From: Chitinophagales bacterium
GTDB taxonomy: Bacteria > Bacteroidota > Bacteroidia > Chitinophagales > S012-47
DNA length: 37,074 bases
Assembly (NCBI GenBank): GCA_026981615.1
Contig: JALSIH010000228.1
Coordinates: 1 to 37,074, forward strand
Direction of reading: 5' to 3'
Part shown: positions 12,672 to 14,869 of the stretch, piece after piece
Layout: every line of letters begins with the position of its first letter
Position numbering within the stretch: the stretch's first letter is position 1
Notes under the pieces: generated by a model
Told to the model about the DNA's origin: nothing
Database searches by the model: none
The model's input: the letters and a program-made list of their open reading frames with translations, nothing else
Made by a program: the position numbers and the translations under genes

Positions 12672-13961
12672 TCAGCCATTCATCAGGGCTTCGATTTCAT
12701 CGGCTTCGAGCGGAATGTCGCCCATCAGGTCATCAAAACCATCTTCGCGCACGATGATGTCGTTTTCAAGGCGAATGCCGAGGCCTTCCTCCCGGATATA
12801 GATGCCGGGTTCCACGGTAAAGGCCATTCCCGCTTTGATGGGTTCGGTCCAGAGGCCTACATCGTGGGTGTCAAGGCCGATAAAGTGGCTCGTTCCGTGC
12901 ATGAAGTATTTTTTGTAAGCCGGCCACCCGGGGTCCTGGTTTTTGATGTCTTCTTTCGTGAGGAGGCCGAGGCCGAGAAGTTCTTTCTCCATCAGAAGCC
13001 CGACCTCTTTCTGGTAATCGTCCAGGTAAACGCCCGGACGCAGCATGGTCTTGGCTTCTTTCATCACCCGCAACACGGCATTGTAGACATCTTTCTGCCG
13101 GGGAGTGAATCGTCCGCTGACCGGAATGCAGCGGGTCATATCAGAAGCATAATTTGCATACTCGGCCCCGATATCGAGGAGGATGACATCACCGGCTTTG
13201 CATTCTTGGTTGTTTTCTACGTAATGCAGTACGCAGGCATTGGCTCCTGAGGCAATGATGGGTTGATAAGCCGGGCCGCGGCTTCTGCGCTTCATGATTT
13301 CAAAATTGAAAAGCGCTTCGATGTCGTTTTCATTGACACCCGGTTTTACGAAAGCAAGCAATTCCAAAAATGCATCCCGGGTGATTCCGCATGCATGGCG
13401 CATCGTTTCAATTTCTTCAGGCTCTTTTACCGAGCGGAAACGGTGCATATGCGGGGCCAGTCTCTCATATCGATGAAGCGGATAGTGCTGCATGCACCAC
13501 TTCCGGAAGCGGTCGTCACGCGTTTCTACGGGATTGTTGCGCCTCAAGTGTTCGTTGCTGTTCAGAAAAATCATTTCGGCCTCGGCTGCGATGATCTTAA
13601 AGATGTTTTCAAACTCGTCCAGCCAGTAGACGTTTTGAACCCCGCTTAGTTCGCGGGCTTCCTCTTTCGTTAGCTTGGCTCCTTCCCAGATGGCAATTTC
13701 TTCGCTGGTCTCTTTGAGAAAAAGCATCTCGCGGTGTACTTCCCGGAAGGCATCGGGAAAGACAATGAGAATGCTTTCTTCCTGGTCAATCCCCGACATA
13801 TAGAGCAGATCGTTGTTTTGCCGGAAGGGCATGGTTCCGTCCGCATTGCTCGGAAGAATATCATTGCTGTTGAAAACGGCCATTGCTTTTGGCGGTAAGA
13901 CTTCGCGCAACTTGGCGCGGTTTTTCACATAAAGTGATTGCGGTAGCGCTTGATATTTCAT
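12672..13961 (-). CDS. pepP: Aminopeptidase P family protein (Xaa-Pro aminopeptidase, M24B)
   Basis: 429 aa: 'DIGAEYANYASDMTRCIPVSGRFT', 'HGTSHFIGLDTHDVG', 'FTVEPGIYI', 'IRLENDIIV' metal-ligand motifs. Confidence 0.94.
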   Translation of the reverse strand: MKYQALPQSLYVKNRAKLREVLPPKAMAVFNSNDILPSNADGTMPFRQNNDLLYMSGIDQEESILIVFPDAFREVHREMLFLKETSEEIAIWEGAKLTKEEARELSGVQNVYWLDEFENIFKIIAAEAEMIFLNSNEHLRRNNPVETRDDRFRKWCMQHYPLHRYERLAPHMHRFRSVKEPEEIETMRHACGITRDAFLELLAFVKPGVNENDIEALFNFEIMKRRSRGPAYQPIIASGANACVLHYVENNQECKAGDVILLDIGAEYANYASDMTRCIPVSGRFTPRQKDVYNAVLRVMKEAKTMLRPGVYLDDYQKEVGLLMEKELLGLGLLTKEDIKNQDPGWPAYKKYFMHGTSHFIGLDTHDVGLWTEPIKAGMAFTVEPGIYIREEGLGIRLENDIIVREDGFDDLMGDIPLEADEIEALMNG

Positions 13962-13977
13962 TATGGGAAATTTATTT

Positions 13978-13993
13978 TTTAGGTTTGCCTAAA
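13978..13993. promoter_or_regulatory. Candidate metalloregulator operator (DtxR/MntR-like palindrome)
   Basis: TTTAGG-TTTG-CCTAAA, perfect 6-nt inverted arms, in the divergent gap between aminopeptidase P (ATG at 13961, minus) and the ZIP transporter (ATG at 14057, plus). Confidence 0.55.
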
Positions 13994-14056
13994 TATTGAC
14001 AAAAAGCTTGTGAACGCAATTTCGAATTTTTGTAAATACTTTAATAATTAATTGGG

Positions 14057-14869
14057 ATGTATGCCTGGTTTTTAACATTAAATCCGATTCTGCAGGCCTT
14101 GCTGGCTACGATATTCACATGGGGTGTGACGGCCCTGGGTGCATCGCTGGTATTCTTTTTCCGAAGTGTCAATCAAAAGGTGCTGGATGCCATGCTGGGC
14201 TTTGCAGCCGGGGTGATGCTGGCGGCCAGTTACTGGTCACTTCTTGCCCCGGCCATCGAAATGTCTGAGAAGATGGGAGTTCCGGGATGGATGCCTGCGC
14301 TGGTGGGATTTTTGCTCGGAGCCGTTTTTATACGCCTCATCGATCTGGTCTTGCCGCATCTTCATCCTTTCAAGCCTACGAGCGAAGCGGAAGGGATACA
14401 TACCTCCTGGCAACGGAGTGTTCTGCTCGTATTGGCCATCACCCTGCACAATTTCCCCGAGGGCCTGGCCGTGGGCGTGGCGTTTGGTGCCGCAGCCCTG
14501 GGCATGCCCGAAGCCAGTATCGGAGCAGCCATTGCGCTGACCATCGGCATTGGTCTGCAGAACTTCCCTGAGGGAACGGCAGTGTCGGTACCCTTGCGCA
14601 GAGAGGGGGTGTCCACGGGAAAAAGTTTTTGGTATGGTCAGCTCTCGGGATTTGTAGAGCCCATTGCCGGAGCCATCGGTGCAGCTGCGGTCCTCGTTGT
14701 TCAGCCATTGCTTCCCTACGCACTGGCTTTTGCCGCGGGTGCCATGGTTTTTGTCGTCATCGAAGAACTGATACCTGCCTCCAATGAATCGGGCAACACG
14801 GACATTGCCACCATGGGGGCCATTCTGGGGTTTGCCGTGATGATGACACTGGATGTGGCATTGGGCTGA
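14057..14869 (+). CDS. ZIP family metal transporter
   Basis: 270 aa membrane protein with ZIP motifs '[18 protein letters not shown]' ([11 protein letters not shown]) and '[17 protein letters not shown]', C-terminal '[11 protein letters not shown]'. Confidence 0.95.

Follow-up and report, generated by a model that had tools for sequence, protein, structure and literature searches.

The corynebacterial DtxR and mycobacterial IdeR regulators recognise a box with the 19-bp consensus TTAGGTTAGSCTAACCTAA. Streptococcal ScaR and SloR and treponemal TroR are Mn-responsive, three-domain DtxR-family repressors of metal importers, their targets being ABC transporters. The tro promoter oligonucleotide of T. 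denticola contains TTTTGATATATCAAAA, with a half-site unlike the one described below (PMC2628430), and a TTTAGG...CCTAAA text match in the same TroR paper was discarded as an operator, as it is actually a troR cloning primer (PMC2628430). Within the Bacteroidota, PgMntR (PG1044) of Porphyromonas gingivalis binds the promoter of FB2-mntR, the Mn-transporter operon to which its gene belongs, with Mn strengthening and Fe weakening the interaction (PMC4805248). Binding was obtained with a 385-bp promoter fragment, and the parts of that source drawn upon here contain no operator sequence (PMC4805248). Similarly, no operator sequence for the bacterial group considered here was found in the literature searched.

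The window, the whole stretch of 37,074 nucleotides analysed, is contig C228 of a 2.66-Mb Chitinophagales genome (G000) that is 94% complete; the relevant features are collected in Table 1. The 95-bp divergent gap between pepP and the ZIP gene (13962-14056) contains the two-fold symmetric site tttaggtttgcctaaa, a perfect 6-4-6 inverted repeat of 16 bases, present where a preliminary description of this DNA had placed it. The palindrome is 17 bp from the pepP start codon and 63 bp from the ZIP start, and on the minus strand it overlaps a weak -7-like TATTTAGG on the pepP side. A clear TAnnTTTG box was found on neither strand of the gap. The site is very probably an MntR/DtxR-family operator for the ZIP importer, because of its position and its conservation, both in a genome of the same genus and through its repeated occurrence ahead of dtxR genes and dtxR-ZIP pairs. 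Judged from sequence, it is highly likely that the palindrome serves as the operator of the sole, MntR-like DtxR-family regulator of the genome and that the metal-loaded dimer of this protein represses the importer.

Table 1. Features of the pepP-ZIP region, in window coordinates.
Feature	Position	Strand	Basis
Predicted MntR/DtxR-family operator TTTAGG-TTTG-CCTAAA	13978..13993	.	Sequence; genome-unique; 16/16 in G001; 27.5 bits
ZIP-family divalent metal transporter, 270 aa, main predicted target	14057..14869	+	Pfam Zip PF02535; nearest solved structure BbZIP
pepP, M24B Xaa-Pro aminopeptidase, 429 aa, possible second target	12672..13961	-	Pfam AMP_N + Peptidase_M24
Conserved ZIP leader, probably promoter and ribosome-binding region, boxes not identified	14006..14056	+	Near-invariant between G000 and both G001 copies

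The palindrome shares with the DtxR/IdeR box its TTAGG and CCTAA half-sites and a regulator of the DtxR family. In contrast to the classical 19-bp box it is a single 6-4-6 palindrome: the CCTAAA is followed by TATTGACA, which provides no CCTAA third half-site, and by eye about 13 of the 19 positions agree with the consensus. PgMntR is likewise a Bacteroidota DtxR-family regulator with a FeoA-type C-terminal domain and is encoded in one operon with its Mn transporter, an arrangement comparable to the dtxR-ZIP pairs of the relatives described below (PMC4805248). It differs in its twin FeoA domains, in the presence of Cys108 in the metal site and in its partner, the FeoB-type FB2 in place of a ZIP protein (PMC4805248).

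In the same-genus genome G001, where pepP also adjoins a ZIP gene whose product is 96% identical to that of G000, all 16 bases of the palindrome are kept in the orthologous gap, while the approximately 10 bp directly to its right, including a TTGACA, have diverged; the conservation for which the preliminary description had proposed to look is observed in this gap, beside a flank that has changed. The TTGACA at 13996 was rejected as the -35 box of ZIP, as it is not conserved in G001, whereas the 51 bp preceding the ZIP start are near-invariant. The ZIP locus of G001 occurs on two contigs, L003 (G001:C74) and L019 (G001:C92), at contig ends in both cases and with near-identical sequence, which probably reflects an assembly or strain-variant effect and not a duplication.

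In two genomes of another family, G007 and G040, the orthologous ZIP gene follows dtxR in a dtxR-ZIP pair, and versions of the palindrome, TTTAGGCATGCCTAAA and TTTAGGATAGCCTAAA, respectively, start 46 bp before dtxR. The same pair is found in G011, Cnuella takakiae, a Flavobacterium MAG, an uncultured Flavobacteriaceae, a Bacteroidia MAG and a Flavobacteriales MAG, and each of these six further pairs carries the palindrome upstream with 0-2 mismatches. Among the named ZIP relatives, the dyad lies within 1,100 bp upstream of ZIP in 6/21 Bacteroidota-type loci versus 1/59 others, the two classes being separated by hand from record titles. DtxR-family genes were also gathered by protein profile. 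In the first set, which included a few loci already known through the motif, TTTAG-N6-CTAAA is located within 150 bp upstream of 31 of the 39 dtxR loci; in 1,000 first-order Markov sets the count averaged 0.02 and never exceeded 1, and an unguided enumeration of all palindromic dyads (5-base arms, gaps of 0-16) ranked exactly this dyad first. In the cleaned set of 51 loci, from which motif-derived loci were removed and to which near relatives were added, the dyad is found within 150 bp upstream in 33, compared with 5 sites in the remaining 197 kb of these loci, or about 0.2 expected in the 7.65 kb of upstream sequence. Since the loci are relatives of one another, the counts cannot be taken as independent. 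A matrix built from 29 dtxR-upstream sites, none originating from the window or its genus, gives the palindrome 27.5 bits, its highest score in the window, the next best place reaching 9.3 bits. The preliminary description had proposed a DtxR-family operator and suggested asking whether the motif clusters upstream of DtxR-family genes; the operator proposal is supported by the relatives, where the same element precedes dtxR genes and dtxR-ZIP pairs far above chance.

The regulator left unnamed in that description is probably the product of C194:700-1347, the only DtxR-family gene of the genome, which is located on a different contig from the window. The protein comprises three domains, Fe_dep_repress, Fe_dep_repr_C and FeoA, and SloR and ScaR are among its closest relatives of solved structure, before DtxR and IdeR; its best NCBIfam model is an MntR, with a score below the equivalog cut-off. 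The BsMntR ligands Glu99, Glu102 and His103 are kept as E101, E104 and H105, and the position of DtxR Cys102 is not occupied by a Cys, so that in these respects the metal ligands are MntR-like, in contrast to those of DtxR. The position of BsMntR Asp8 is occupied by Asn, as in most aligned relatives, and by Asp in G007 and G040. Manganese is therefore the likely sensed metal, since the Glu/Glu/His set is retained and an MntR is the best model, yet the score is below the cut-off and Asp8 is replaced. A mainly iron-sensing protein of the IdeR/DtxR type, with ZIP acting as an iron importer, would agree with this replacement, with the TTAGG half-site common to DtxR/IdeR boxes and with the ability of ZIP proteins to carry several metals. 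It is nevertheless rather unlikely, considering the MntR-type ligands, the higher scores of MntR and ScaR/SloR-type proteins over DtxR/IdeR and the feoAB operon devoid of a site.

Under the preferred reading, when metal is plentiful (most likely Mn(II), possibly Fe(II)) a metal-loaded MntR dimer would occupy TTTAGG-N4-CCTAAA and lower ZIP transcription, and when metal is scarce the site would be freed and import would rise. The same binding may also act on pepP. Binding, the metal and the effect on pepP are predicted, and repression is proposed on the model of DtxR-family repressors. In the dtxR promoters of relatives, the TAnnTTTG box that first follows the palindrome on its downstream side stands 7-8 bp away in three loci and 26-32 bp away in 18; the former placement overlaps the core promoter and the latter suits other modes too, so the sign of control is put forward as probable repression. 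Several dtxR promoters (for example L173, L182, L194 and L207) display an additional TTTAG-N6-CTAAA-like element, weaker than the main one and 21-23 bp away from it. Across the dtxR promoters, 15 weak sites paired at about 22 bp from the main site were observed versus 0.73 expected, a count not taken as support because the -7 box TAnnTTTG, or its complement, is present within some of these sites. Four of the paired sites are only one base off and have no TAnnTTTG box inside; these could reflect cooperative binding two helical turns apart.

M24B aminopeptidase P is typically Mn-dependent. Among the 96 ZIP loci examined, pepP is a neighbour of ZIP in G000 and G001 only, so co-control of pepP is a plausible reading based on the position of the palindrome. 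It is highly improbable that the palindrome serves pepP and not ZIP, as a pepP promoter element or the site of a different regulator: the shorter distance to the pepP start and the overlap with the weak -7-like sequence would favour such a role, but the restriction of the pepP-ZIP neighbourhood to this genus, the association of the palindrome, in other families, with dtxR genes and dtxR-ZIP pairs and the lack of pepP beside the motif-first matches with identified neighbours argue against it.

The exact palindrome has a single copy in the 2.66-Mb genome, and allowing up to 2 mismatches yields no second match in the window, where shuffled sequences give a mean of 1.49 matches at that looseness. 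The relaxed dyad TTTAG-N6-CTAAA occurs three times in the 2.66 Mb, the same as its reversed control and thus with no genome-wide enrichment, and in 299 genomes of the order the exact word is about as frequent as the background. Counts of the bare word were therefore dropped as operator evidence, since at background-like frequency they are unable to decide function, which position and conservation decide instead. In the loci read, a partial look and not a census, many of the exact copies elsewhere in the order lie inside genes. One such copy, at 1419-1434 of L146 (G003:C216), falls within a dtxR coding sequence and was discarded as a site: the conserved F-L-G-Y-P-K codons can spell the word, TTTTTAGGCTATCCTAAA, which is a trap for genome scans using the motif. 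A functionless chance palindrome in an AT-rich gap would suit these frequencies and intragenic copies, but it is extremely improbable in view of the full conservation in the G001 gap beside a diverged flank, the dyad in the dtxR upstream regions and the palindromes of dtxR-ZIP pairs in other families.

The further sites that the preliminary description predicted at mntH, feoAB or the regulator's own gene were not found in this genome: no site was detected upstream of dtxR in G000, as also in G001, and neither the feoAB operon nor a weak Nramp homologue of G000 has a good site. The region before feoA-feoB, at 1177-1199 of L161 (G000:C222), displays an imperfect palindrome with 7-base arms, TTATTTAAAATGATTCTAAATAA, which, at just 9.4 bits under the MntR matrix, may belong to a different regulator, for example Fur. 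An additional candidate is TTTAGCTTATCCTAAA at C116:6200, a possible second target of the regulator. It has 1 mismatch and scores 21.1 bits, and a 299-aa protein that has no Pfam match begins 33 bp further on; the stretch has no match in G001, in a test that had no positive control. At 569-2542 of L022 (G000:C116) two tandem related proteins of 298-299 aa are encoded, with signal peptides and no Pfam match, the C116 site preceding the second. Two lesser candidates were rejected, C4:6610 (19.3 bits), which sits by the junction of unrelated genes, and C156:4466 (15.4 bits), a weak match. In a partial, motif-first look across the order, the exact intergenic copies at gene starts included two that precede DtxR-family genes (L053, L153) and two that precede TonB-dependent receptors (L154, L158), the receptors being among the locations where the preliminary description had suggested looking for the motif. 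In L154 (G009:C21) and L158 (G174:C1) the word lies 25 and 32 bp, respectively, before receptors with a Cys-x-x-Cys plug motif. In some relatives the regulon may therefore extend to metal-specific uptake at the outer membrane.

Neither G000 nor G001 has its dtxR gene next to ZIP. This could be explained simply by the splitting of an ancestral dtxR-ZIP unit, with the operator staying with ZIP; the events may also have run in the reverse order. A more speculative extension, which we hold to be doubtful, is that the genus lost the regulator's own operator together with the ZIP link and that the remaining site became a two-way switch coupling metal import to aminopeptidase P; if true, peptide turnover would follow metal supply. 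The type of regulation is itself ordinary, and what is new is one more operator of a known kind, in this group. The sites define an operator consensus for MntR-like regulators across a class of Bacteroidota, with a TTTAG-N6-CTAAA core that often reads TTTAGACTNNTCTAAA or TTTAGGNNNNCCTAAA. With this consensus metal regulons, comprising ZIP, the regulator's own gene and some TonB receptors, would become predictable, for example at the FB2-mntR promoter of P. gingivalis.
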